A model generated the notes under the pieces. It saw nothing but the letters and a program-made list of their open reading frames with translations, was not told where the DNA came from and searched no databases. The translations under genes were made by a program, and so were the position numbers. 64,000 nt of DNA. Origin: Rhodoferax sp. Its GTDB lineage: Bacteria > Pseudomonadota > Gammaproteobacteria > Burkholderiales > Burkholderiaceae_C. Location: the NCBI GenBank assembly GCA_031291305.1, contig JARLJH010000058.1, positions 186,001 to 250,000 of the forward strand. Direction: 5' to 3'. Shown piece by piece: positions 6,821-55,242 of this stretch. The stretch's first letter is position 1. Each line of letters begins with the position of its first letter.

Positions 6821-7489
6821 ATGAAAAAAACAATGAAGTTCATGGCCATCGCGGCCATCATGACGACCAGCACCGCCTTTGCGCAGTCAGCTGGCACCTG
6901 GATGGCCCGTGTTGGCGCTATGAAAATCACACCGGATGTTTCCAGCGGCTACCTGTCGGCACCTGATTACATGGGCGGCACCAAGGCGGACGTGAGTTCG
7001 GACACCCAACTCAGTGGCGGTATCACTTACATGTATACCGACCATTTTTCGGTCGACGTACCACTGGCTCTCCCTTTCAAGCACCAAATCATTGGTGATG
7101 GCGCTTTGAAGGGCGCGGGTGCGGTGGCCGAAGTCAAAGCATTACCCGTCACCCTCTTCTTCCAATACCGTTTCATGGAGGCTAACGCCAAGTTCCGCCC
7201 CTACGTGGGCCTGGGCGCCACCTATGCCTACTTCTTCGATGAAACGGGCAGCGGCAAGCTTACCGCCACCACCAATCCCGGGGGCACACCTACCACACTG
7301 AATGTGGATAGCAAGTGGGGGGTGACGGCCCAACTAGGCGCCACAATCAGCCTCAACGACAAGTGGTTTATCGACATGCACTACACCAAGTCGAACCTGA
7401 GTACCACCACTCATTTCTCCACCGGCCAACATCTGGATATCGGACTTGACCCAGAGTCTTTCGGTGTTGAGGTAGGCTACAAGTTCTGA
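6821..7489 (+). CDS. ompW: OmpW-family outer membrane protein
   Basis: A 222-residue porin-like protein with a cleavable signal peptide (MKKTMKFMAIAAIMTTSTAFA, cleaved after FA). The mature part has alternating hydrophobic residues of an eight-strand beta barrel, the family feature FFQYRFMEANAKFRPYVGLG, and a C-terminal Phe (GVEVGYKF), the outer-membrane insertion signal. OmpW proteins form narrow channels for small hydrophobic molecules. It lies just after the GDSL lipoprotein and ends in a strong terminator, so the two probably form one unit. Confidence 0.92.
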   Translation: MKKTMKFMAIAAIMTTSTAFAQSAGTWMARVGAMKITPDVSSGYLSAPDYMGGTKADVSSDTQLSGGITYMYTDHFSVDVPLALPFKHQIIGDGALKGAGAVAEVKALPVTLFFQYRFMEANAKFRPYVGLGATYAYFFDETGSGKLTATTNPGGTPTTLNVDSKWGVTAQLGATISLNDKWFIDMHYTKSNLSTTTHFSTGQHLDIGLDPESFGVEVGYKF

Positions 7490-7511
7490 TCGTTTGTACC
7501 CTTGTTCATAA

Positions 7512-7538
7512 AAGCCCCGCGAGTCGGGGCTTTTTTTT
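7512..7538 (+). terminator. Rho-independent terminator after ompW
   Basis: Stem AAGCCCCG / CGGGGCTT with a short loop, followed by a run of eight T. The position, 20 bases past the ompW stop, fits transcription end for the + strand operon. Confidence 0.9.
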
Positions 7539-7561
7539 ACGTCCAAGCAACCCCAGGCCCG

Positions 7562-7951
7562 TCAGGACAATCCGGCTGCGGTTCTTGCGGTAAACACCTC
7601 TTTGGCGGCAAACAAGCCGTTGAGCGCCGCCGGGAAACCCGCGTAGACCGCCATCTGCATCATCACTTCCACCACCTCGTCGCGGGTCACGCCCACATTG
7701 AGGGCGCCTTCGATGTGCACCTTGAGTTGCGGTGCCGCATGGCCCATCGCTGTCAGCGCGGCAACTACGGCGATTTCACGCGAGCGCAAATCCAGGCCGG
7801 GGCGGGAATAGATGTCTCCAAACGGAAATTCAATCAGGTAGCGGGCAAAGTCCGGCGCGATATCGCTCAGGCTGTTGATGACTTTGGTGCCAGCCTCGCC
7901 GTCAATTTCGGCCAATTTGGCCAGTCCGCGTTCATATCGACTTTGGGTCAT
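7562..7951 (-). CDS. Carboxymuconolactone decarboxylase-like (AhpD-fold) protein
   Basis: A 129-residue protein starting at the ATG at 7951 (MTQSRYERG...). It matches the gamma-carboxymuconolactone decarboxylase family, including the segment RSREIAVVAALTAMGHAAPQLKVHIEGALNVGVTRDEV, quoted by its hallmarks RSREIA, LKVHIEGALNVG and EVVEVMMQMAVYAGFPAA. There is no CxxC pair of the peroxidase-type AhpD proteins, so it is closer to the decarboxylase/isomerase branch. Its start lies 20 bases inside the upstream MerR gene, so the two are translationally linked and the regulator very likely controls it. The reaction in vivo is unknown. Confidence 0.85.
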   Translation of the reverse strand: MTQSRYERGLAKLAEIDGEAGTKVINSLSDIAPDFARYLIEFPFGDIYSRPGLDLRSREIAVVAALTAMGHAAPQLKVHIEGALNVGVTRDEVVEVMMQMAVYAGFPAALNGLFAAKEVFTARTAAGLS

Positions 7952-8354
7952 GGGGTGTTCCTTTAACAAGTGGTGAATCTTGCGAAAGGGAATGCTCAAT
8001 CTGCCGGTAATGCGCAATCTTGGCTTGCAGCACCTTTTCGGACTGTTGCAAGACGCGCACTTGCGCCAGCACTGTCGAACGGTGGGCTTCAAGCATCTCT
8101 CGACGCGCACCGGCTGTGGCATTCCCTTCGCTTCGTAGTCTGGCGAAGGCCTGCATGCCTTGAATCGGCATGCCGGTCCCGCGCAGGCGCAGCAGGAAAT
8201 CCAGCCAGTCCATGTCCGAGGCGGCGTAGCGGCGCTGTCCACCCGTGGCGCGAGCAACGGACGAGATCAGGCCGATACGTTCGTAGTAGCGCAACGTGTA
8301 GGCACTCAGGCCGGTGTGCTTGGCGACCTCGGTAATGGTCAGGTAGGGTTCCAT
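7932..8354 (-). CDS. MerR family transcriptional regulator
   Basis: A 140-residue regulator from the ATG at 8354 (MEPYLTITEVAK). The N-terminus is a winged helix-turn-helix of MerR type: ITEVAKHTGLSAYTLRYYE, then RIGLI. A linker RATGGQRRYAASDMDWLDFLLRLR and a coiled-coil dimer helix follow. No clustered cysteines are present, so it is not a metal or SoxR-type sensor; it resembles regulators of aldehyde/quinone stress genes. It overlaps the decarboxylase-like gene. A MerR-type promoter lies directly upstream, implying autoregulation. Confidence 0.9.
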   Translation of the reverse strand: MEPYLTITEVAKHTGLSAYTLRYYERIGLISSVARATGGQRRYAASDMDWLDFLLRLRGTGMPIQGMQAFARLRSEGNATAGARREMLEAHRSTVLAQVRVLQQSEKVLQAKIAHYRQIEHSLSQDSPLVKGTPHDPKSI

Positions 8355-8361
8355 GGATGCC

Positions 8362-8392
8362 ACTGTAAAAGTTAGAGTGCACTCGAAGTCAA
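8362..8392 (-). promoter_or_regulatory. MerR-type promoter with 19-bp spacer and palindromic operator
   Basis: On the minus strand TTGACT (8392-8387) is separated by exactly 19 bases from TACAGT (8367-8362), the overlong spacer that MerR activators untwist. The palindrome GAGTGCACTC (8375-8384) sits in the middle of the spacer. Transcription would begin almost at the start codon at 8354, giving a nearly leaderless mRNA. Confidence 0.72.
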
Positions 8393-8437
8393 GCGTTTAT
8401 TTTCAGGGGCTTTGCGGCTCAGCTTTAAACTGTTTGC

Positions 8438-34150: not shown

Positions 34151-36679
34151 TCAGTTGAGCAGACGCGCGGGGTTTGCCTGGATTTCGTCAAGCGCCGAGC
34201 GCGTCGCCCGGGCGGTCAAGGGTTCATCTTCCTGCGGCTCTAGCAAGCCCACCTGCAGGTAGGCCGCTAGGCGCGCCGTCTGCAACAAGTAGCTGTGCCC
34301 GACATTGTTGGCAAACAGATGCAAATGCCCCAACGGGCTGCGCCAGACATACTGCACCTGTACAACGTTTGATTTGTAGTCCAAGGCAAACCACGAACCC
34401 AAAGCTAGGTCGCGCGCCCACTCCATCATCACCGCACTGGCCGTACCACCGCCTTCACTGACCACATCAAGGTCTGTGGCTTCAAAACCCAGCAATTCTT
34501 CAATGTTCTCGGTATCCAGCGGCAACTCTTCGCCACCGTCGTCACTGATGTAGTCGTCGAGCTCAGCCAGTCGCTGCGCCATCGCCTGAATTTGCTCGTC
34601 GGCAATCGCCTCGGTCTTGGCCATGAAAGCGTCTGCCAGGGTGTCGCTAATGATCTTGATATGCGTCTCCTGCACGGAACGACCGACGCCCAAAAGGTTC
34701 ATGCCAGCACGCAAATTCTGCAACAAGCCTGACAGACCACTGATCACCTTAGCGCGATCAGCACGATTGGGTTTGGCGCTTGCAGCCCAAATAAGATCAG
34801 TCGCCGTCTTCTTGAGTCGCAGCGTTTCCTCATGCTGCTTGCCCTGACGCACCGTAGACACGGCCAGTACCTCCGCCCAGACCTTGAACAGGAAGGAGCG
34901 GATTTCGTCACGCACCGGCATGTCCTTGAGTTGGTCGCGCAGCTCGATGGTGTACTGGATGGCCAATGTTTCTTTCTGCTCCAGTTGCTCGGCCACGCCC
35001 AACACTTTCTGCGCTGAGGGCTTCTTGGCAAGGTGTTTTTTCAGGAACTGTTGGAACTCTTCATACACCCGCTTATAAACGCGGTCACCCGTTTCCGGGT
35101 ACTGTTCAACAACCTGCACAACGCGCTTGATCTCGGTAACAAGATCATCGGCGTTGATGCCGCTGGAATCGAACCCCAGCACGCAGGAACCCATGTGGTC
35201 AATCAACTGACGCGCCGGATGGTCAAGTCTGTTGAAAAAGTCTGGGTCTGCCAAGGCAACACGCAGCACCGGCATCTGCAACCGCGCGAACCAGACCCGA
35301 GCGCCGGGCGGAATGCGGTCTTCCTGCAAGATGGACTGAAACATCAGGGCCACCAGCTCAATAATGGCCTTTTCGTTGTCTGTTTCAGCCTTCCCCTTGA
35401 GTTCGGACGATTGTTGGCGCAATTCGGTAGCCATCTGTGCCACTGCAACCGGATACACAATCTGTCCGCCCCCCTCTGAGGTAGCAAACTGGACATCAGG
35501 CAGACGTGGCTGCTGGGCAATAGCCATCATCAGCGGCACCGACGGACCGTGATAAGCCACCTGTGGTCCACCAGCTCCTCCGTAAAAAGCCGCAGCGGGC
35601 TCCATCATTCCAGATTGGCCCAGCACCTGCCCAGGGTATCCTTGCCCAGAGTAGCCACCGCTGCCAGCTGGCACGAAGCTGCCGCCAGACGACACAAAAC
35701 CTTCCCCCGAAGAAATAAACCCTGCGGGCCCGCTGGCTGTACCGCGCGGGGCACGCCCGCCGCCAGCCGGTGGACTTTCAAGAAACGCGCCGCTTAGCAG
35801 CCTGCCCACTTGCTCCATGAGGCCTTGCGCACGGCCATAAAATCCGCCTGCACGACCTGTCGGAAAACCAATACGCCCCCCCCCCATACCGCCACGATGA
35901 CTTTGCCCCACGGGCGGCGAGCCTGCGGACTGGTCCGACGAACGGCGCTGCTGCGGTGGTTCTGCAACAGGTGCCTGTGTCTGCGGCATTTGCGCATAGG
36001 GTTCATTGGCATCTTCAAAAGATGCGGCACTGGTCTTAGCACCAAATTCAATCACAGGCATAACACCGAGCTTGATCAACTCATCATTACAGACGGTGTA
36101 GGCCTTTTCCAGTTGTTCATTGAGGTAGCGCTGTACCACCCCGATAACCAGTTGCCAGGCTTCACGCGGCAAACCGGCACTCTCCCATTGCTCCACCAAA
36201 TGGAGAAACAACACCTCTGGATGCACGATATCGCGCGAGCTCAAAGCCTGGTTGTTGTTGAGATACTTGAGCCGTTTGCGCAGGTCATTGACCGGCTCAG
36301 CACCTTTTTCCATCAGATTCAAAGCCATGCGCGAGGCAATGATCTTGTTCTCCACCACGTCGGTGCCAACCAGCTCAAAATCTTTGGAAAGCCCGCCAAC
36401 GATGGAAGGCAAGACAGACTTTTTTTCGGGAGCCAGCGACTCCTGCCAAGCTCTTAGGGTGCCATCCTGCCAGCGTGTTTTATTTCGCTGGTAGGACATC
36501 CAGGCATCACGACGCGACTGCATCTCTCGCGAAGGAGCTGCCTCGTCCATCGCTTGGGTCAAACGCTCCTGCACCTTGTCCAGCAAAGACTTCAAGGATG
36601 CCCCTGCCTCGAACACCAGGCGCTGACGCACCCGCGCAGACATCTGCATCTGTGGGGATGTCTGCTGGGAAGCTGTCAT
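34151..36679 (-). CDS. DUF1631 family protein
   Basis: A large 842-residue cytoplasmic protein of the DUF1631 family, common in beta- and gammaproteobacteria; older annotations call some members thymidine phosphorylase without basis. A helical N-terminal third is followed by a Gly/Pro/Gln-rich low-complexity stretch (residues ~245-400), a long helical domain and a beta-rich C-terminus (WFALDYKSNVVQVQYVW, HLHLFANNVGHSYL) that resembles a degenerate PilZ fold. The coding strand carries a run of ten G at 35885-35876 (codons ~265-268), a potential slippage site. The function is unknown. Confidence 0.85.
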   Translation of the reverse strand: MTASQQTSPQMQMSARVRQRLVFEAGASLKSLLDKVQERLTQAMDEAAPSREMQSRRDAWMSYQRNKTRWQDGTLRAWQESLAPEKKSVLPSIVGGLSKDFELVGTDVVENKIIASRMALNLMEKGAEPVNDLRKRLKYLNNNQALSSRDIVHPEVLFLHLVEQWESAGLPREAWQLVIGVVQRYLNEQLEKAYTVCNDELIKLGVMPVIEFGAKTSAASFEDANEPYAQMPQTQAPVAEPPQQRRSSDQSAGSPPVGQSHRGGMGGGRIGFPTGRAGGFYGRAQGLMEQVGRLLSGAFLESPPAGGGRAPRGTASGPAGFISSGEGFVSSGGSFVPAGSGGYSGQGYPGQVLGQSGMMEPAAAFYGGAGGPQVAYHGPSVPLMMAIAQQPRLPDVQFATSEGGGQIVYPVAVAQMATELRQQSSELKGKAETDNEKAIIELVALMFQSILQEDRIPPGARVWFARLQMPVLRVALADPDFFNRLDHPARQLIDHMGSCVLGFDSSGINADDLVTEIKRVVQVVEQYPETGDRVYKRVYEEFQQFLKKHLAKKPSAQKVLGVAEQLEQKETLAIQYTIELRDQLKDMPVRDEIRSFLFKVWAEVLAVSTVRQGKQHEETLRLKKTATDLIWAASAKPNRADRAKVISGLSGLLQNLRAGMNLLGVGRSVQETHIKIISDTLADAFMAKTEAIADEQIQAMAQRLAELDDYISDDGGEELPLDTENIEELLGFEATDLDVVSEGGGTASAVMMEWARDLALGSWFALDYKSNVVQVQYVWRSPLGHLHLFANNVGHSYLLQTARLAAYLQVGLLEPQEDEPLTARATRSALDEIQANPARLLN

Positions 36680-45250: not shown

Positions 45251-45342
45251 CCCGCATCACGGCATCAGTATCGTTACCCCCTGTCAGTGCCCACCCTGCA
45301 TTGAACAGCGTTAGTCACATCACTCTCAACGGAGACACCACC

Positions 45343-46656
45343 ATGAAACTTAAAGTTCGCCTAACCCTCGCCGCCACACTGGTTCTGTCGCTGTGCGGCA
45401 TGACCCACGCGGCCACCGAACTGGTCATTGCCACCGTGAACAACGGCCACATGATCGAAATGCAAAAGCACACCAAAGAATTCGAGGCGGCCAACCCCGG
45501 CATCACCCTCAAATGGGTCACCCTCGAAGAAGGCGTGCTGCGCCAGCGCGTCACCACCGACATCGCCACCAAGGGTGGCCAGTTTGACGTGATGACCATC
45601 GGCATGTACGAAACGCCAATCTGGGGCAAGAAAGGCTGGTTGACCGAGATCAAACCCGATGCGGCCTATGACGTCAATGACTTGTTGCCCGCGATCCGTG
45701 ATGGCTTGTCCGTTGACGGCAAACTCTATGCGGCACCGTTCTACGGCGAAAGCTCGATGCTGATGTACCGCAAGGACCTAGCCGACAAGGTCGGCGTCAA
45801 GGTCAGCGACCACCCGACCTGGACCGAAGTCAAGGATCTGGCCGCCAAGATCAACGACCCGAAAGATGGTGTTTATGGCATTTGTCTGCGCGGCAAGCCG
45901 GGCTGGGGCGACAACATGGCCTTCCTGAGCACCCTGGTCAACACCTACGGCGGCCAGTGGTTTGACATGAAATGGAAACCCCAGCTGGAATCCAAACCCT
46001 GGAAGACCGCCATCAACTTCTATGTGGACCTGCTGAACAAATACGGTCCCCCGGGCTCGTCGGCCAATAGTTTCAATGAAATTCTGGCGCTGTACAACGA
46101 AGGGAAATGTGGCATGTGGGTCGACGCCACCATCGCCGCCTCGTTCATTACCGATCCGAAACAATCCAAAGTTGCAGACAAGGTTGCCTTTGCCCAAGCG
46201 CCCATCGCCGTGACCCCCAAGGGCGCCAACTGGCTGTGGGCCTGGGCACTGGCAATTCCCGCCGGCTCCCAAAAGGTCGAAGCCGCCACCAAATTCGTGA
46301 CCTGGGCCACCAGCAAGGACTACATCAACCTGATCGGCAAGGAAGTGGGCTGGGGCCACGTCCCCACCGGCACGCGCAAGAGCACCTACACCAATGCCGA
46401 GTTCCTGAAAGTGGCCAGGTTTGCCGCCGCTGAAAAAGCCGCCATCGACAGCGCCAATCCGAACGATGCGACGCTGCCCAAAAGTCCATACGTCGGTGTT
46501 CAATATGCTGCGATCCCTGAGTTTCAGGCGATTGGAACCACCGTGGGACAACAGATGAGCGCCGCTTTGGCCGGCAAGATCAGCGTTGATGCCGCCTTGA
46601 AAGCGTCGCAACTGGCGGCCGAACGTCAGATGACGAGAGCCGGCTACTACAAATAG
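45343..46656 (+). CDS. Polyol/sugar ABC transporter substrate-binding protein
   Basis: A 437-residue periplasmic binding protein with an ATG at 45343 after GGAGAC. The signal peptide is MKLKVRLTLAATLVLSLCGM with cleavage after THA. It belongs to the SmoE/MtlE-like group of family 1 binding proteins (features FEAANPGITLKWVTLEEGVLR, core FEAANPGITLKW; GVLRQRVTTDIATKGGQFDVMTIGMYE, core TTDIATKGGQFDVM). It begins an operon with two permeases and an ATPase. The two downstream dehydrogenases indicate ribitol and D-arabinitol as likely ligands, though related proteins also bind sorbitol or mannitol. Confidence 0.87.
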   Translation: MKLKVRLTLAATLVLSLCGMTHAATELVIATVNNGHMIEMQKHTKEFEAANPGITLKWVTLEEGVLRQRVTTDIATKGGQFDVMTIGMYETPIWGKKGWLTEIKPDAAYDVNDLLPAIRDGLSVDGKLYAAPFYGESSMLMYRKDLADKVGVKVSDHPTWTEVKDLAAKINDPKDGVYGICLRGKPGWGDNMAFLSTLVNTYGGQWFDMKWKPQLESKPWKTAINFYVDLLNKYGPPGSSANSFNEILALYNEGKCGMWVDATIAASFITDPKQSKVADKVAFAQAPIAVTPKGANWLWAWALAIPAGSQKVEAATKFVTWATSKDYINLIGKEVGWGHVPTGTRKSTYTNAEFLKVARFAAAEKAAIDSANPNDATLPKSPYVGVQYAAIPEFQAIGTTVGQQMSAALAGKISVDAALKASQLAAERQMTRAGYYK

Positions 46657-46657
46657 A

Positions 46658-46733
46658 CAAACAGGGAACACCTGTTTGGCGACTGCGCCAACTGGTCCGG
46701 GGCCGATGTTCCTTGGCCATATGAAAGTATGGC
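46658..46733 (+). promoter_or_regulatory. Two intercistronic hairpins after the binding-protein gene
   Basis: CAAACAGG-GAACA-CCTGTTTG (46658-46678) begins two bases past the stop codon, and GCCATA-TGAAAG-TATGGC (46716-46733) follows. Neither has a T-run. Such hairpins commonly protect the binding-protein part of an ABC transporter mRNA and lower permease output. Confidence 0.6.
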
Positions 46734-46827
46734 TACGGCGTAGATAGCCCGCTTCCAGTCAGGCGCTGCGACATCGATCCGAACGTGTCGTGACGTACTT
46801 TGACTGACATCTTTCGAGGGCATTTCC

Positions 46828-47688
46828 ATGAACCGATTTCTTCCCCGCGTGCTGTTGGCACCGGCGATGCTCACCCTCTTTCTGTGGATGATCGTGCCAC
46901 TGGTGATGACGATCTACTTCTCCGTCATCCGCTACAACCTGTTGCAACCTGACCAAACGGGCTTTGTCGGGCTGGACAACTACGTCTACTTCATGACCGA
47001 TCCGTCGTTCGGTACGGCGATCATGAACACCTTGTTGCTGTTGGGCAGCGTGATTTTGATCACCGTCATTGGCGGCATCATGCTGGCACTGCTGGTGGAT
47101 GCGCCGTTCCCGGGTCGCAATATTGTTCGCATCCTGCTGATTTCCCCGTTCTTCGTCATCCCCACCGTCAATGCACTGCTGTGGAAGCACATGATGATGA
47201 ACCCGATCTACGGTGTCCTGGCGCAGGTCTGGCGGTACTTTGGTGCCACGCCGGTCGACTGGCTGACCAACTGGCCACTGTGGAGCGTGATCCTGATCGT
47301 GACCTGGCAATGGCTGCCCTTTGCCACGCTGATTTTCATCACCGCGCTGCAAAGCATGGACCGCGAGCAGTTGGAAGCCTCGCGCATGGACGGCGCCAAC
47401 TACCTGCAACAACTGCGCTACCTCTACATCCCGCACCTGGGCCGATCCATGGCGGTGGTGGTGATGATCGAGATGATCTTTCTGCTCAGCGTGTTTGCCG
47501 AGATTTACACCACCACCAGCGGCGGACCGGGGGACGCCAGCACCAACCTGGCGTTCTTGATCTTCAAACAGGCCTTGTTGAACTTTGATGCTGGCGCGGC
47601 GTCAGCTGGCGCCCTGCTTGCCGTGGTGCTGGCCAATATTGCCGGCATTTTCCTGATCCGCATGGTTGGCAAAAACCTTGACAAGTGA
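46828..47688 (+). CDS. Polyol ABC transporter permease 1 (SmoF/MtlF-like)
   Basis: A 286-residue inner-membrane permease with six helices. The EAA loop that contacts the ATPase is LEASRMDGANYLQQLRYLYIPHL (core ASRMDGANYLQQLRYLYIP). The N-terminal helix region MNRFLPRVLLAPAMLTLFLWM is typical of MalF-like polyol permeases. It lies 171 bases after the binding protein gene, the largest gap in the operon, which contains two hairpins. Confidence 0.92.
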   Translation: MNRFLPRVLLAPAMLTLFLWMIVPLVMTIYFSVIRYNLLQPDQTGFVGLDNYVYFMTDPSFGTAIMNTLLLLGSVILITVIGGIMLALLVDAPFPGRNIVRILLISPFFVIPTVNALLWKHMMMNPIYGVLAQVWRYFGATPVDWLTNWPLWSVILIVTWQWLPFATLIFITALQSMDREQLEASRMDGANYLQQLRYLYIPHLGRSMAVVVMIEMIFLLSVFAEIYTTTSGGPGDASTNLAFLIFKQALLNFDAGAASAGALLAVVLANIAGIFLIRMVGKNLDK

Positions 47689-47695
47689 GCACAGC

Positions 47696-48520
<825 letters not shown>

Positions 48521-48539
48521 CAAGATTCGGAGACCCCAC

Positions 48540-49601
48540 ATGGCTTACCTCTCACTCAACGGCATCGAAAAAATCTTTGGCGACATCCGCGTCATAAAAG
48601 GGCTCAACCTGGACATCCGACAGGGCGAATTTGTGGTGTTTGTCGGGCCCTCGGGCTGTGGCAAATCGACCCTGCTGCGCCTGATTGCCGGACTGGAGCA
48701 CATTGACGCGGGCACCTTGCAGCTGGATGGCCGCGACATCACGCACCTGCCATCCAGCAAGCGCGACCTGGCCATGGTGTTCCAGAGCTACGCGCTGTAT
48801 CCCCACATGAGCGTGTTCGAAAACATGAGTTTCGCGCTGAAACTGGCCAAGGAAAACACCGAAGTGATCAAGGAAAAGGTCGCCCGCGCCGCCAATATCC
48901 TGAACCTGACCCAGTATCTGGAGCGCACGCCCAAGGAATTGTCGGGTGGTCAGCGCCAGCGGGTGGCGATTGGCCGCGCCATTGTGCGTGCACCCAAGGT
49001 GTTTCTGTTTGACGAACCGCTGTCCAACCTGGATGCGGCGCTACGCGGCCAGACGCGCATCGAGATTGCCAAGCTGCACCGCGACCTGGGCGCCACCACC
49101 ATTTATGTCACCCACGATCAGGTGGAGGCCATGACACTGGCCGACCGCGTGGTGGTGCTGCGTGATGGTGTGATCGAGCAGGTTGGCACGCCGCTGGAGC
49201 TGTACGACCGCCCTGCCAACCAGTTTGTGGCGCAGTTCATCGGCACACCGCAAATGAACATCGTCTCTGCTGCCCAAATGCCGGCGCTGGAGACCACCGC
49301 TGGCTTGTCGCTGCCGGCGGGTGGCTTCGTTGGACTGCGACCTGAGCACGTGATCCTGCACCCCGCTGGTCAGGGCATGCTGCAGGGCAAGGTTGATCTG
49401 GTCGAAGCGCTGGGGGCCGAAACACTGATTTACGTGACCACCACCCAAGGTGCTCAACTGGTATCGCGCCAAACCGAACGCACACCGCTGCACACCGGGG
49501 ATGCTGTGAGCATCCAGATCGACACCGACACCGCTCATGTGTTTGACGCCAACGGACGCATCACGCGCACCGGCCAGACCCATGAGATGCCGACCCACTG
49601 A
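48540..49601 (+). CDS. Polyol ABC transporter ATP-binding protein (MalK/UgpC-like)
   Basis: A 353-residue ATPase. The Walker A motif is GPSGCGKST, the signature LSGGQRQRVAIGRA, Walker B VFLFDEPLSNLD, and the switch His lies in TIYVTHDQVEAMT. The C-terminal ~120 residues form the regulatory OB-type domain of MalK-like subunits (GLRPEHV). The ATG at 48540 is chosen because the family starts MAYLSLNGIEK. It energises uptake by the two permeases. Confidence 0.95.
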   Translation: MAYLSLNGIEKIFGDIRVIKGLNLDIRQGEFVVFVGPSGCGKSTLLRLIAGLEHIDAGTLQLDGRDITHLPSSKRDLAMVFQSYALYPHMSVFENMSFALKLAKENTEVIKEKVARAANILNLTQYLERTPKELSGGQRQRVAIGRAIVRAPKVFLFDEPLSNLDAALRGQTRIEIAKLHRDLGATTIYVTHDQVEAMTLADRVVVLRDGVIEQVGTPLELYDRPANQFVAQFIGTPQMNIVSAAQMPALETTAGLSLPAGGFVGLRPEHVILHPAGQGMLQGKVDLVEALGAETLIYVTTTQGAQLVSRQTERTPLHTGDAVSIQIDTDTAHVFDANGRITRTGQTHEMPTH

Positions 49602-49623: not shown

Positions 49624-50361
49624 ATGAACCAAACACTTCCCCTGGACGGCCAGATAGCCGCCATCACCGGCTCGGCATCGGGCATCGGTTTTGCCAGTGC
49701 CCAGGCCATGATCTCGGCTGGCGCGCAAGTTGTGTTGATTGACCGCGACGCATCAGCCCTGATCAAGGCCCGAGATGCACTGGGCACCGCAGCCCTGCCG
49801 CTGGAGCTTGACCTGCTGGACCCCGCGCCGTGCGCGGCCATGCCCCAGCGCATCCTGGAGCTGACCGGCGGTCGGCTCGACATCTTCCACGCCAACGCCG
49901 GGCTGTATGTCGGTGGCGATCTGATCGACGCCAACGACGACGCGATCGACCGCATGCTCAACCTGAACATCAACGTGGTCATGAAGAACGTGCGCGGCGT
50001 GCTGCCCCACATGATCGAACGCGGCACCGGCGACATCATCGTGACCAGCTCGCTCGCCGCGCATTTCCCGACCCCCTGGGAGCCGGTCTATGCATCCAGC
50101 AAGTGGGCCATCGACTGTTTCGTGCAAACCGTGCGTCGCCAGGTCTTCAAGCACGGCATCCGCGTGGGCGCCATCTCGCCGGGGCCGGTGATCACCGCGC
50201 TGCTGGCCGACTGGCCAGCCGAAAAACTGGAAGAGGCCAAGGCCAAGGGTAGCTTGCTGGAGGCGGCTGAAGTCGCCAACGTTGTGTTGTTCATGCTCAC
50301 GCGCCCGCGCGGCATGACGATCCGCGACGTCGTGATGATGCCCACGCAGTTCGACCTCTGA
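49624..50361 (+). CDS. rbtD: Ribitol 2-dehydrogenase (SDR family)
   Basis: A 245-residue short-chain dehydrogenase. The NAD motif TGSASGIG is at residues 16-23, HANAG is the NNAG equivalent, the catalytic Ser is in VTSSLAAH, and Tyr/Lys in PVYASSKWA. Several stretches match my memory of Klebsiella ribitol dehydrogenase: DIFHANAGLYVGG, EPVYASSKWAIDCFV, RVGAISPGPVITALLADWP and TIRDVVMMP. It would oxidise ribitol to D-ribulose. It sits directly after the transporter ATPase. A sorbitol dehydrogenase role is the main alternative. Confidence 0.82.
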   Translation: MNQTLPLDGQIAAITGSASGIGFASAQAMISAGAQVVLIDRDASALIKARDALGTAALPLELDLLDPAPCAAMPQRILELTGGRLDIFHANAGLYVGGDLIDANDDAIDRMLNLNINVVMKNVRGVLPHMIERGTGDIIVTSSLAAHFPTPWEPVYASSKWAIDCFVQTVRRQVFKHGIRVGAISPGPVITALLADWPAEKLEEAKAKGSLLEAAEVANVVLFMLTRPRGMTIRDVVMMPTQFDL

Positions 50362-50422: not shown

Positions 50423-51808
50423 ATGAACACCATCCTTCACCTGGGCCTGGGCTCATTCCATCGCGCCCACCAAGCTGTCTACATGCACCAATTGCAGCAA
50501 TCCGGCGACCGACGTTGGGCACTGGCAGGCGGCAACATCCGCGCCGACATGATGGACACCATCGACGCGCTGATCGCACAGGATGGTGCCTACACGCTGG
50601 AAACCGTCACCCCGCACAACGATCGCAACTACACCCGCATCACCTCCATCCAGACCGTGGTGCCGTTTGACGCCGAGCTCAGCGGCCTGGTGGCCATCGG
50701 CTCAGACCCCAACACCCGCATCATCTCGTTCACCGTCACCGAAGCGGGCTATTACCTGGATGCCCAAAACCACCTCGACCTCAATTTTGCGGATTTGAGC
50801 GCTGACGTGGCAGCCGTCAAGGCGGGCGAGCCGGTCTGCACTCTTTACGGCGCCCTCACCACCCTCCTGCGCGCCCGCATGCAGGCCAACGCAGGCCCGG
50901 TGACGCTGTTGAACTGCGACAACCTGCGCCACAACGGAGAACGTTCGCGCGGCGGGTTGCTGCAATTCCTTAGCCTGGTTGGCGACAGTGCCTTGCTGGT
51001 CTGGGTACAAGCCAACACCACCAGTCCCAACGCCATGGTCGACCGCATCACACCACGCCCGACACCGGAAGTGCGTGCGCGGGTGTTGGCCGCCACTGGC
51101 GTCGATGACCCAGCCGCCCTGATGGGTGAGAGCTTCATCCAGTGGGTGATTGAAGACAACTTCATCGCTGGGCGCCCAGCCTGGGAAACGGTTGGGGTGG
51201 AGATGGTGGATTCGGTGCAGGCTTACGAAGAGGCCAAGATTCGTCTGCTCAATGCCACCCACAGCTGCATTGCCTGGGCGGGCACACTGGTGGGTTACAG
51301 GTTTATCCATGAAGGCACGCTGGACCCGGTGATCCGCCAGTTGGCCTATGACTATGTCACTGACGACACCATCCCGGTGTTGTTGCCTTGCCCGATTGAC
51401 CTTGAACAATACCGCGACGTGGTGTTGGACCGCTTTGGCAACCCGGCCATTGCCGACACCAACCAGCGCGTGGCAATGGATGCGTTCTCGAAGATTCCCG
51501 CCATGATCGCCCCCACCGTTCGTGACCGGCTGACGCGCGGCGAGACGATCAACAGCGTGTCCATGTTGCCAGCGCTCTTTTTGGCCTACCTGCAGCGCTG
51601 GCATGCCGGGCAGATTCCCTACACCTACGAGGACCAGGCGATGGACCCGAAAGTGGCGCATGCCATTTGCGCCTCAAGCGACCCCGTTGCCGCCTTCTGC
51701 GCAGACATCGTGTTGTGGGGCCCGTTGGCCAACGATGCACGTCTGGTGCAAGCCATGCGCACGGCCTTTAACCGTGTTAGTCTTTTTGTCAAGAACCATC
51801 GATCATGA
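50423..51808 (+). CDS. dalD: D-arabinitol 4-dehydrogenase (mannitol dehydrogenase family)
   Basis: A 461-residue polyol-specific long-chain dehydrogenase. The start LHLGLGSFHRAHQAVYMHQL contains the NAD-binding G-x-G-x-F; the catalytic signature AKIRLLNATHSCIAWAG has the Lys/Asn/His set. Blocks such as LLNCDNLRHNGER, MVDRITPRPT and FSKIPAMIAPT agree with D-arabinitol dehydrogenase of Klebsiella more than with mannitol dehydrogenases. The product would be D-xylulose, the substrate of the xylulokinase whose ruined gene follows the regulator. Confidence 0.85.
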   Translation: MNTILHLGLGSFHRAHQAVYMHQLQQSGDRRWALAGGNIRADMMDTIDALIAQDGAYTLETVTPHNDRNYTRITSIQTVVPFDAELSGLVAIGSDPNTRIISFTVTEAGYYLDAQNHLDLNFADLSADVAAVKAGEPVCTLYGALTTLLRARMQANAGPVTLLNCDNLRHNGERSRGGLLQFLSLVGDSALLVWVQANTTSPNAMVDRITPRPTPEVRARVLAATGVDDPAALMGESFIQWVIEDNFIAGRPAWETVGVEMVDSVQAYEEAKIRLLNATHSCIAWAGTLVGYRFIHEGTLDPVIRQLAYDYVTDDTIPVLLPCPIDLEQYRDVVLDRFGNPAIADTNQRVAMDAFSKIPAMIAPTVRDRLTRGETINSVSMLPALFLAYLQRWHAGQIPYTYEDQAMDPKVAHAICASSDPVAAFCADIVLWGPLANDARLVQAMRTAFNRVSLFVKNHRS

Positions 51809-51886: not shown

Positions 51887-52846
51887 ATGTCCCACCTGCC
51901 ACGTCAACTCAAACCCGAACTCGAACAGGATTTCGTCCGCTCGACAGATTTGGGCTACGAGGCACCCGACGAGTCCGGGTTCATCCGTTGCCTGTCGCAT
52001 GGTTTTCCCACGCCACTGGCGCGCTGGCATCACCATGACGAGTACGAGTTCCATCTGATCACCGCCACCTCGGGCAAAGTGTTTGTGGGTGACTGGATCG
52101 GGCACTTCCGCCCCGGCCACGTGGTACTGACCGGCCCACGCCTGCCACACAACTGGGTCAGCACTGACGTGCCCGAAGGCGGCGTGGCCGAGCGTGATCT
52201 GGTCATCCAGTTTTTGCATGGTCCGATTGAAACCGGCTGCCAATCCATACCAGAGCTGCGTGAATTGCTACCTATTTTAGAGCGCGCCAAACATGGGATC
52301 GAGTTTTTTGACATCTACCCGCAAGCGGTAGCGCACTGGCAGCGCATCAAGTCCCACAAGGGGCTGGCGCGCTTTGCGGCGTTTTGTGATCTGATGAGCG
52401 ACTTGGCGCAATGTACCGATTACCGTCTGTTGTCCAACACCCAGATGCAGAGCATGGACAGCGACACCCAGCTTGATCAGATCAACGCCTTGATCAGCCG
52501 CATCAGCGAAAACCTGTCTGAGCCCGTCTCGGCTGCAGACATGGCACGCGAGCTGGCCATGAGCGAAAGCGCCTTTTCGCGCTTCTTCCGCCGGGCCACC
52601 GGCAATACGTTCACCGACTTTGTCAACCATGTTCGCGTCAGTCGCGCCTGCCAGTTGCTGATGGAGTCGGACTTGCTGATCACCCACATTGGCTACCAGG
52701 TGGGCTTCAACAACATCGCCAATTTCAACCGGCGCTTTCTGGACATCAAAGGCATGACGCCCAGCGACTACCGTCGCCAAGCCGCCAGCCGCTTTGGCCT
52801 GAAAGCCGCAGCCCAAGCACAACATCATCATGTCTCTCGGCATTGA
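51887..52846 (+). CDS. AraC family regulator of the pentitol operon
   Basis: A 319-residue regulator. The N-terminal cupin-like sensor is visible at residues ~45-105 (WHHHDEYEFHLITATSGKVFVGD, core HHHDEYEFHLI; then GHVVLTGPRLPHNWVS). The C-terminal double helix-turn-helix spans ~205-305 (PVSAADMARELAMSESAFSRFFRRATGNTF, core MARELAMSESAFSRFFR; then HIGYQVGFNNIANFNRRFLDIKGMTPSDYR, core VGFNNIANFNRRFL). Placement as in Pseudomonas mtlR-type loci suggests it activates the transporter operon, probably at the tandem repeats at 45220. Its last 17 bases overlap the start of the xylB remnant. Confidence 0.9.
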   Translation: MSHLPRQLKPELEQDFVRSTDLGYEAPDESGFIRCLSHGFPTPLARWHHHDEYEFHLITATSGKVFVGDWIGHFRPGHVVLTGPRLPHNWVSTDVPEGGVAERDLVIQFLHGPIETGCQSIPELRELLPILERAKHGIEFFDIYPQAVAHWQRIKSHKGLARFAAFCDLMSDLAQCTDYRLLSNTQMQSMDSDTQLDQINALISRISENLSEPVSAADMARELAMSESAFSRFFRRATGNTFTDFVNHVRVSRACQLLMESDLLITHIGYQVGFNNIANFNRRFLDIKGMTPSDYRRQAASRFGLKAAAQAQHHHVSRH

Positions 52847-53400
52847 CCTGGGCACCTCCCCGGTCTGGCACTTCAGCTGATGGATCTGCAGCACCACGTC
52901 CACGCCAGCATGGACGCGCCCATCACCCTGCGGCGCCCGCTCCCTCTGGAGCGAGCAACTCCCTGCCGAATGGTGGCAGGCTCTGAAATCTGTGGTGGCG
53001 CAACGGCGCGCCACCGCACCACGGGCCTGGAGCCAGGTGCGAGGAATTGGAACGCCGGGTGCCACCGTCACGCCAGATCACCGGCAACCTGGCGATGCCG
53101 GGTTTCATCTCCCAATGCAACTCTGAATACGAGAGCATGAATCCAATGTAGTCAAAGGGCTACACGAGGTTTTACCACTCAAAGATTGACTGCACCTGGA
53201 ACTCACCGGTGTTTGCGTCAGCGAGAGTCGGCCAGCGTTGTTGGAGCGAACCGATGCTGGCGGCATGCGGTTTGAACCTGTCTCACATGCCGCGTCTGCT
53301 GGAAGGAAGCCAGCACAAAGTCAACTTCTGGCGCAGCGCTACCCCCGTTTTCGGGCACTCCATCCGGCACTGCAAGCTTTTTTTGAATCGACGGGTCTTG
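52830..53400 (+). pseudogene. xylB: Multiply deleted xylulokinase gene
   Basis: The ATG at 52830 overlaps the regulator end and begins MSLGIDLGTS, the FGGY-kinase N-terminus, then stops at 52878. Collinear xylulokinase fragments follow in shifting frames: LWSEQLPAEWWQALKSVVAQ (from 52944) running to VRGIG; ELERRVPPSRQITGNLAMPG (from 53044); KD-stop-LHLELTGVCVSE (from 53181, the stop TGA at 53187 replacing a Trp); RCWSEPMLAACGL and MPRLLEGS (53236-53310); and the C-terminal AQRYPRFRALHPALQAFF (from about 53331). Roughly 570 of ~1480 bases remain. Order and overlap show this was the operon kinase. No functional product is possible. Confidence 0.85.
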
Positions 53401-53529
53401 GTCAGCATCTTGGTTTGACCGGGGCAGACCCCAATGGCCTGAGGCGACACTGTCCGGCAGAATGCGGGGCACTCTGACCGTGTCAGCAACGCGTAGGTCA
53501 GGCCCTGTTTCAAGCTTTGAGAACCCCAT

Positions 53530-55242
53530 ATGCAGACAGACTTCGACTACATCATCGTCGGTGCCGGCACCGCCGGCTGCTTGTTGGCCAACCGCTTGAG
53601 CGCCGACCCGTCCAAACGTGTATTGCTGATCGAAGCAGGCCGTCAGGACGACTACCGCTGGATCCACATCCCGGTGGGTTACCTGTACTGCATCGGCAAC
53701 CCGCGCACCGACTGGCTCTACAAAACCGAGCCCGACCGAGGTTTGAACGGCCGCACCCTGCGCTACCCGCGTGGCAAAACGCTGGGCGGGTGCAGCAGCA
53801 TCAACGGCATGATCTACATGCGCGGCCAGGCGCGCGACTACGACGGCTGGGCGAAACTCACCGGAGATGATGAATGGCGCTGGCAGCGTTGCCTCGAGGA
53901 CTTCAAGCAACATGAAAGTCACTACAAACTAGATAGCTACTCGCACAGAATAGACAAGGGCTTGGAGGCTAAAAAGCTTGAAGAATTGGCACGTACACAC
54001 GGCACCGGCGGCGAGTGGCGGGTCGAAAAACAGCGCCTGCGCTGGGACATTTTGGACGCCTTCGCCCAGGCCGCGCAACAAGCGGGCATTCCCGCCACCC
54101 TTGATTTCAACCAGGGCGACAACGAAGGCGTGGGCTACTTCGAGGTCAACCAGAAATCCGGCTGGCGCTGGAACACCGCCAAGGCTTTTTTACGACCCGT
54201 GTGCGAAAACCGCCCCAACTTCACGCTGTGGACGCAGGCCCAGGCGGCCAAGCTGGTGATTGAAAAACAGCCCGATGGCCGCCTGCGTTGCGCGGGAGTG
54301 GAGCTGATCAAAGGCGGCCAAAGCATCACCGCTCTGGCCGCCGGTGAGGTGATCTTGAGCGCGGGCAGCATTGGTTCGCCGCAGCTCCTGCAGCTCTCGG
54401 GCATTGGTCCGGCGGCGCTGCTGCGCCAGCACGGCATCGCCGTGCAGCACGACGCGCCGGGCGTGGGCGCCAATCTGCAGGACCACTTGCAGATTCGCAC
54501 CGTGTTCAAGGTGCAGGGGGTCAAAACGCTCAACACACAGGCCAACTCGCTGTGGGGCAAGGCGATGATTGGTCTGGAATACGCCCTCAAGCGTAGCGGA
54601 CCGATGAGCATGGCGCCCAGTCAGCTGGGCGCCTTCACGCGCAGCGACCCGGCCCAGCCCTACCCCAATATCGAATACCACGTACAGCCGCTGAGCCTGG
54701 ACGCCTTTGGCGAGCCGCTGCACCGCTTTGCCGCCTTCACCGCCAGCGTCTGCAACCTCAACCCGACCAGCCGTGGCAGCGTGCAGATCACCTCACCCGA
54801 CTTCAGGCAAGCCCCGGCGATTGCCCCCAACTACCTCAGCACGGCGGAAGATCGCCAGGTGGCAGCCGACTCGCTGCGCCTGACGCGCCGCATCGTCGGC
54901 CAGGCAGCCCTGTCCAAATACCAGCCCCAGGAGTTCAAACCGGGCGTGCAGTTCCAGACCGATGACGAACTGACACGTCTGGCTGGCGACATTGCCACCA
55001 CCATCTTCCACCCGGTCGGCACCACCAAAATGGGCCGCGACGAGGACCCGCTGGCGGTGGTTGATACCCGGCTGCGAGTGCGGGGTCCGGGCGGGCTGAT
55101 CGCCGGGCTGCGCGTGGTGGATGCGGGCGTCATGCCCCTCATCACCAGCGGCAACACCAACTCACCCACCCTGATGCTGGCAGAGAAAGCGGCGCGCTGG
55201 ATCATCGCGGACGCGCACACCCTGTCCATGAACAAGTCGTGA
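53530..55242 (+). CDS. GMC-family FAD oxidoreductase (choline dehydrogenase-like)
   Basis: A 570-residue flavoprotein. The FAD-binding N-terminus DYIIVGAGTAGCLLANRLS, the GMC signature 1 region RGKTLGGCSSINGMIYMRG (core GGCSSINGMIYMRG), signature 2 GSIGSPQLLQLSGIGP and the C-terminal HPVGTTKMG with active-site His are present. It resembles alcohol dehydrogenases of the AlkJ/choline oxidase type; the substrate is uncertain and a link to polyols is only positional. Residues ~134-151 (KLDSYSHRIDKGLEAKKL) come from an in-frame copy of the dispersed repeat in a surface segment. Confidence 0.9.
   Translation: MQTDFDYIIVGAGTAGCLLANRLSADPSKRVLLIEAGRQDDYRWIHIPVGYLYCIGNPRTDWLYKTEPDRGLNGRTLRYPRGKTLGGCSSINGMIYMRGQARDYDGWAKLTGDDEWRWQRCLEDFKQHESHYKLDSYSHRIDKGLEAKKLEELARTHGTGGEWRVEKQRLRWDILDAFAQAAQQAGIPATLDFNQGDNEGVGYFEVNQKSGWRWNTAKAFLRPVCENRPNFTLWTQAQAAKLVIEKQPDGRLRCAGVELIKGGQSITALAAGEVILSAGSIGSPQLLQLSGIGPAALLRQHGIAVQHDAPGVGANLQDHLQIRTVFKVQGVKTLNTQANSLWGKAMIGLEYALKRSGPMSMAPSQLGAFTRSDPAQPYPNIEYHVQPLSLDAFGEPLHRFAAFTASVCNLNPTSRGSVQITSPDFRQAPAIAPNYLSTAEDRQVAADSLRLTRRIVGQAALSKYQPQEFKPGVQFQTDDELTRLAGDIATTIFHPVGTTKMGRDEDPLAVVDTRLRVRGPGGLIAGLRVVDAGVMPLITSGNTNSPTLMLAEKAARWIIADAHTLSMNKS
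53926..53980 (-). repeat. Dispersed repeat inserted in frame in the GMC oxidoreductase
   Basis: The plus strand reads AACTAGATAGCTACTCGC, then GACAAGGGCTTGGAGGCTAA and AAAGCTT, the reverse form of the element. The encoded residues lie before GTGGEWRVEKQR, where relatives have a shorter loop. Confidence 0.65.

Follow-up and report, generated by a model that had tools for sequence, protein, structure and literature searches.

The locus

The window, a 64-kb stretch (positions 186001 to 250000) of contig C25 in a 4.98-Mb, 69-contig draft genome (G000), contains a sugar-alcohol operon with a xylulokinase (xylB/mtlY) pseudogene at its end. The features in question are as follows.

45337 to 49601, plus strand: sugar-type ABC transporter in open frames, comprising a binding protein (its start picked by eye), an ATPase and two permeases assigned by sequence and gene order
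49624 to 50361, plus strand: short-chain dehydrogenase, intact
50423 to 51808, plus strand: dehydrogenase of the D-arabinitol 4-dehydrogenase family (DalD), intact
51887 to 52846, plus strand: AraC-family regulator (MtlR-like), intact
52830 to 53384, plus strand: xylB (mtlY) pseudogene, left as seven collinear pieces whose reading frame varies
52830 to 52857, plus strand: piece 1, the xylB start, overlapping the AraC stop by 17 bases
52860 to 52940, plus strand: piece 2, in a shifted frame
52941 to 53041, plus strand: piece 3, in the original frame (LWSEQLPAEWWQALKS...SQVR)
53038 to 53041, plus strand: TGCG, the microhomology where a 110-base deletion joined pieces 3 and 4
53038 to 53107, plus strand: piece 4, frame 1 (CEELERRVPPSRQITGNLAMPGF)
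53118 to 53226, plus strand: piece 5, frame 3, interrupted by two TGA codons, with a 32-base deletion at its end
53227 to 53317, plus strand: piece 6, frame 1 (VGQRCWSEPMLAACGLNLSHMPRLLEGSQ)
53323 to 53384, plus strand: piece 7, the C-terminal end, following a deletion of about 760 bases
53385 to 53525, no strand: spacer between the remnant and the GMC gene, marking a rearrangement junction
53530 to 55242, plus strand: GMC oxidoreductase, not seen next to the operon at the other loci examined

The polyol dehydrogenase scores 750.7 bits against NCBIfam NF043014 (cut-off, 600), and its presence together with an ABC transporter and an AraC-type regulator places the operon in the mtl type. D-Arabinitol 4-dehydrogenase turns D-arabinitol into D-xylulose, the substrate of xylulokinase; with a dehydrogenase of this family in the operon, the D-xylulose formed would still require a kinase. 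The remaining operon genes probably still serve to import polyols and oxidise them. None of the 10 matches to the PfkB family in this genome, the one family scanned in looking for a fructokinase in the operon, lies on contig C25. Taking an AraC match of at least 74% identity as the regulator of this operon, we found it in 7 of 60 genomes of the window's genus (G000, G005, G014, G023, G026, G036, and G054).

The xylulokinase remnant

The nearest loci in the named collection belong to Comamonadaceae and uncultured betaproteobacteria. At the closest of these, L055, which is the same place as contig C259 of G005, the AraC protein is 91% identical and the upstream operon matches the window at 86.7% over 7204 columns. 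Directly 3' of its AraC gene, L055 has a xylB ORF of 486 aa (6941 to 8401), and a full 486-aa xylB frame also follows AraC in L056. The L055 product scores 550.4 bits against TIGR01312 (XylB), above the cut-off of 380.25, and 557 bits against NF011601, below the cut-off of 912.

With this product as the tblastn query, the 64-kb window gave matches at 52830 to 53237 in frame 3 (E 3.8e-21; 89.0 bits), 53029 to 53328 in frame 1 (E 8.2e-20; 84.7 bits), and 53313 to 53384 in frame 3 (E 1.6e-4; 35.8 bits), and the best match outside the remnant had an E of 0.096. None of 200 residue-shuffled versions reached 35.8 bits in the window (best, 33.1). At the DNA level, blastn aligned the remnant to L055 in three collinear segments (81% over 308 columns, 70% over 313, and 76% over 46). 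Taken singly, three remnant pieces scored 13 to 25 bits, below the cut-offs of 380 (TIGR01312) and 912 (NF011601). In the list of ORFs of at least 80 aa, those starting on the plus strand between 52847 and 53500 do not exceed 86 aa. The DNA at 52830 to 53384 is thus a pseudogene by its similarity and collinearity, its orthologous position, its destroyed frame, and its loss of purifying selection. Plasmid records gave no match carrying the xylB remnant, and the titles and abstract openings listed by literature searches showed no account of this loss.

About 555 of 1461 bases are left, as judged by tblastn and by DNA alignment with L055. The xylB start codon, an ATG at 52830, lies inside the AraC gene, giving a 17-base overlap through the AraC stop codon (52844 to 52846), and L055 has the identical overlap (6941, 6957). 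Relative to L055, piece 2 is preceded by a gain of 2 bases and followed by a loss of 2 bases. Pieces 3 and 4 meet at the 110-base deletion, both edges of which share TGCG. Near 53107 to 53117 there is a net loss of one base, in a region where the alignment is uncertain. Two TGA codons in piece 5 (53124 to 53126 and 53187 to 53189) stand where L055 has Trp, and the 32-base deletion follows 53226. The largest lesion, the deletion of about 760 bases near 53318 to 53322, takes most of the second half of xylB; its position comes from the blastn segments, the global alignment giving none. Piece 7 has no in-frame stop at the former end of the gene, the original stop codon being lost.

The preliminary description of this DNA had proposed an operon xylulokinase destroyed by several deletions, frameshifts, and stops, and the comparison with L055, which has an intact xylB in the same place, bears this out. 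All six peptide pieces that it named fall within the tblastn alignments, none of whose scores was reached by the shuffled proteins, and the overlap of the start codon with the end of the regulator gene is as it described. It was right that a microhomology deletion exists, and close to the place that it gave (about 53036 to 53055), although the shared sequence is TGCG at 53038 to 53041 and not GGAATTGGA; it counted one TGA in place of Trp where there are two, and the deletion of about 760 bases was absent from its account of the lesions.

Constraint and timing

With L056 as the outgroup, we apportioned the changes, separately for each codon position, between the window branch and the L055 branch. 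On the window branch, the remnant changed at 26 of its 343 first or second codon positions and at 20 of its 169 third ones (ratio, 0.64), a proportion different from that in six intact operon genes (74 of 3840 and 223 of 1920; ratio, 0.17; Fisher p 3.6e-5), although misalignment near indels could inflate the counts for the remnant. At the same sites, the L055 xylB has 13 changes at positions 1 and 2 and 25 at position 3, a borderline difference from the 26:20 of the remnant (p 0.05). The dehydrogenase gene is not relaxed, with 31 of 922 and 66 of 461 on the window branch, compared to 26 of 922 and 55 of 461 on the L055 branch.

By a simple mixture estimate, about 0.5 of the branch has evolved free of constraint after the divergence from L055, with a 5 to 95% range of 0.12 to 1.1. 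Given this width, a recent decay, as had been suggested, is possible and only loosely bounded. The reaction that precedes the kinase is retained, its dehydrogenase gene being unrelaxed. That the transport and dehydrogenase genes upstream are undamaged agrees with their open frames and with the constraint on the six genes tested.

The 3' side

Between window positions 34371 and 53317, contig C259 of G005 runs collinear with the window. After xylB, G005 continues with genes that resemble cheV and those for a lytic transglycosylase and a nitrilase-family protein (named without a family search); in G000 this cheV-like block lies on a contig other than that of the operon (C17:45223-48275). Conversely, G005 has the GMC gene and its downstream region on a separate contig, where a gene read as a PEP-CTERM protein precedes the GMC gene. 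The placements of the cheV-like block and of the GMC gene in the assemblies of G000 and G005 show that a chromosomal junction lies downstream of xylB piece 7, somewhere from 53385 to about 53525. Among the loci compared, 53371 to 53540 was matched by its own genome alone; three others gave short matches (21 to 34 bases, E at least 0.2). Beside the displaced block on C17, tblastn detected no xylB fragment at an E of 1 or less. Between 52700 and 53700 there are no promoter-like (sigma-70-like) sites and two terminator-like sites, against a shuffle mean of 1.0. The earlier view that the damage is limited to the kinase therefore holds on the upstream side, where six genes are constrained, and fails on the 3' flank, which is rearranged and has in the GMC gene a different neighbour.

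Apparent loss of the operon kinase among relatives

We surveyed the place after AraC in 83 loci, comprising the best 80 of 517 relatives plus G054, G036, and the window, and omitting L139 (a copy of L058), L136 (the same as L057), and L138 (the same as L055). xylB was present in 49, absent over at least 2500 searched bases in 25, broken in 3 (the window, L060, and L125), and unassigned in 6; those scored as present include two cut by a contig end (L061 and L106) and one with a single stop within the match (L093). The close loci L135 (G054) and L057 (G023) have no trace of xylB after AraC. On an AraC tree built by a quick method, the label of xylB presence requires 12 changes, at least 7 of them forced by starred branches, with gains and losses pooled. 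Related bacteria seem to have lost the same operon xylB several times.

Two of these loci deserve a separate mention. In L060 (Comamonadaceae bacterium 2FH), a single frame break around position 7507 puts xylB in two frames; this could be an error of sequencing, a pseudogene of recent origin, or a frameshifted gene. L125, from a betaproteobacterial MAG, has a second xylB remnant after AraC (7169 to 7531, about codons 238 to 358 of the query).

The operons also carry two kinds of short-chain dehydrogenase, one before the polyol dehydrogenase, as at 49624 to 50361 in the window, and one of about 261 aa between the polyol dehydrogenase and AraC (L060, L063, L068, and L102). The kind of short-chain dehydrogenase showed no link to the presence of xylB on the AraC tree (5 independent pairs, starred branches; median p 1), five pairs being too few to reach p 0.05.

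A second xylulokinase and the state of the operon

The window's genome has four FGGY_N matches, and the search for a second xylB that had been proposed finds one. An intact XylB at C1:91106-92536 (563 bits against TIGR01312; cut-off, 380) adjoins a xylA-like gene, genes resembling those of a sugar ABC transporter, and a putative ROK regulator gene, an arrangement like that of a xylose operon. Within the genus, G005 has both copies, in the operon slot and as a spare; G000 has the broken slot gene and the spare; and in G054, G036, G026, and G023 the slot is empty and the only XylB is the spare, beside a ROK-like gene. A xylA-like gene lies within a short stretch around the spare in G036, G026, and G023. 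For G014 (slot not called), G023, and G026, genome completeness is below 90%. In G023, the sole XylB over the cut-off (C161:7283-8748) is split over two frames, and its slot is empty.

In a sample of 150 genomes of the family, the dehydrogenase (at least 60% identity) occurs in 33, all with different genus codes; in G099 it is in two pieces on two contigs. A XylB over the cut-off is found in 31 of these 33 genomes, compared to 10 of the 117 that lack the dehydrogenase (p 4e-21). We called a slot filled when a XylB gene lay no more than 5 kb from that of the dehydrogenase and in the same orientation, a criterion of strand and distance and not of adjacency to AraC. This gave 17 genomes, three of which (G130, G180, and G079) have the two genes 3.5 to 3.8 kb apart. 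It was called empty when AraC was found and at least 3 kb had been searched 3' of it; 13 genomes have an empty or broken slot (G000, G078, G090, G099, G103, G105, G125, G137, G150, G155, G159, G169, and G178). G128, G133, and G175 were left out of both classes on account of contig ends.

A XylB elsewhere in the genome accompanies 12 of the 13 empty or broken slots (11 of 12 without G000) and 3 of the 17 filled ones (G117, G180, and G197; p 1.2e-4, with kinship ignored). The same 12 of 13 differ from the share among genomes that lack the dehydrogenase (10 of 117; p 2.7e-10, kinship again ignored), and the filled-slot genomes do not (3 of 17; p 0.22). If G128, G133, and G175 are counted as slot-less, the figure becomes 14 of 16. 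An initial tally of 38 genomes, made before contig ends were checked, had 17 of 19 slot-less and 4 of 18 filled genomes with a XylB elsewhere; for the final one, G128, G133, and G175 were removed, G099 was added, and genomes of the same genus except G000 were kept apart. G103 (taken as the same strain as L060) is a counter-case: its slot xylB is read in two frames, and nothing else in the genome passes the XylB cut-off. G175, one of the three genomes set aside for contig ends, has no protein that passes it. By this correlation, the operon kinase and the spare xylulokinase are nearly mutually exclusive, which would explain why loss of the kinase was possible with the dehydrogenase retained.

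Explanations for the loss

Taken alone, the remnant is an ordinary pseudogene, and gene loss by redundancy is well known. We are fairly confident in reading it as the xylulokinase that once closed a polyol (D-arabinitol/mannitol/glucitol) operon of the Pseudomonas fluorescens mtl type and was made redundant by the second XylB. One can envision that the second XylB phosphorylates the D-xylulose delivered by the dehydrogenase; since that enzyme would handle the product, the operon kinase would be dispensable and loss-of-function mutations in it tolerated. The deletions, one of them at the TGCG repeat, the stops, and the 3' chromosomal junction would have come afterwards.

It might instead be imagined that D-arabinitol use was abandoned and that the operon now serves only mannitol and glucitol, whose product, fructose, needs a fructokinase, so that the spare XylB is irrelevant. 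In P. fluorescens, one transporter and one dehydrogenase serve mannitol, glucitol, and arabitol, according to excerpts of PMC4514859, and the genome has its 10 PfkB-family matches, all of them off the window's contig. That account predicts loss of the slot with no need for a XylB, yet a XylB elsewhere is found far more often where the slot is lost than where the dehydrogenase is missing (12 of 13 versus 10 of 117), and we consider it doubtful. The closeness of the GMC gene, which starts about 145 bases beyond the last xylB piece, and the position on C17 of the block that follows xylB in G005 raise the thought that the rearrangement broke xylB first and that the decay is an after-effect, whether or not the kinase was redundant. 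This order of events strikes us as unlikely: the C-terminal piece persists before the junction, which thus did not simply cut the gene off, and G036 and G026 lack xylB even though the cheV-like block still stands behind AraC.

An assembly or sequencing error in a 69-contig draft would be a very improbable source of two stops, several frameshifts, and three deletions of between 32 and about 760 bases within 555 bases, a pattern unlike that of read errors, next to an upstream operon that aligns with L055 at 86.7% and whose genes are open frames. We give equally little credence to the remnant being a new short gene, for which the 86-aa ORF at 52880 to 53140 would be the candidate; that ORF consists of xylB bases, partly out of frame, and the region has no sigma-70-like site.

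Redundancy of the operon kinase remains our preferred reading for the window. It is an even bet, in our judgment, whether this extends to a general course in Comamonadaceae and their relatives, in which the operon xylulokinase would be discarded repeatedly once another is present, D-arabinitol catabolism would come to rely on an enzyme of another regulon, and the window would represent the hand-over in mid-course. A single genus shows ordered stages, from intact plus spare through broken plus spare to gone plus spare, and so offers a testable case of the enzyme of one regulon taking over a step of another pathway. It also advises caution, in that completeness of the operon alone may mislead as a predictor of D-arabinitol use.

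Comparison with known systems

The closest described system is the mtlEFGKDYZ operon of P. fluorescens DSM50106 with its regulator gene mtlR, which serves mannitol, arabitol, and glucitol and in which MtlY is a xylulose kinase and MtlZ a fructose kinase (PMC4514859, in excerpt); a similar cluster with a named xylulokinase is described for Pseudomonas putida W619 (PMC3056050, in excerpt). The window shares with the former the ABC polyol transporter, the polyol dehydrogenase, the xylulose kinase (MtlY), and the AraC-type activator (MtlR). Relative to that system as excerpted, the window differs in having its regulator gene inside the cluster, overlapping xylB, and in having a short-chain dehydrogenase; its contig lacks a PfkB kinase, and its xylulose kinase is a pseudogene.

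The spare xylB on C1 belongs to the same family (TIGR01312), with 56% identity to the operon xylB of L055, and unlike the remnant it is intact and stands beside xylA-like and ROK regulator-like genes. In Klebsiella, dalD and dalK pair a D-arabinitol 4-dehydrogenase with a D-xylulose kinase. The operon in the window embodies the same pairing of dehydrogenase and kinase, but it differs from dalD/dalK in its ABC transport, its AraC regulation, and its dead kinase.
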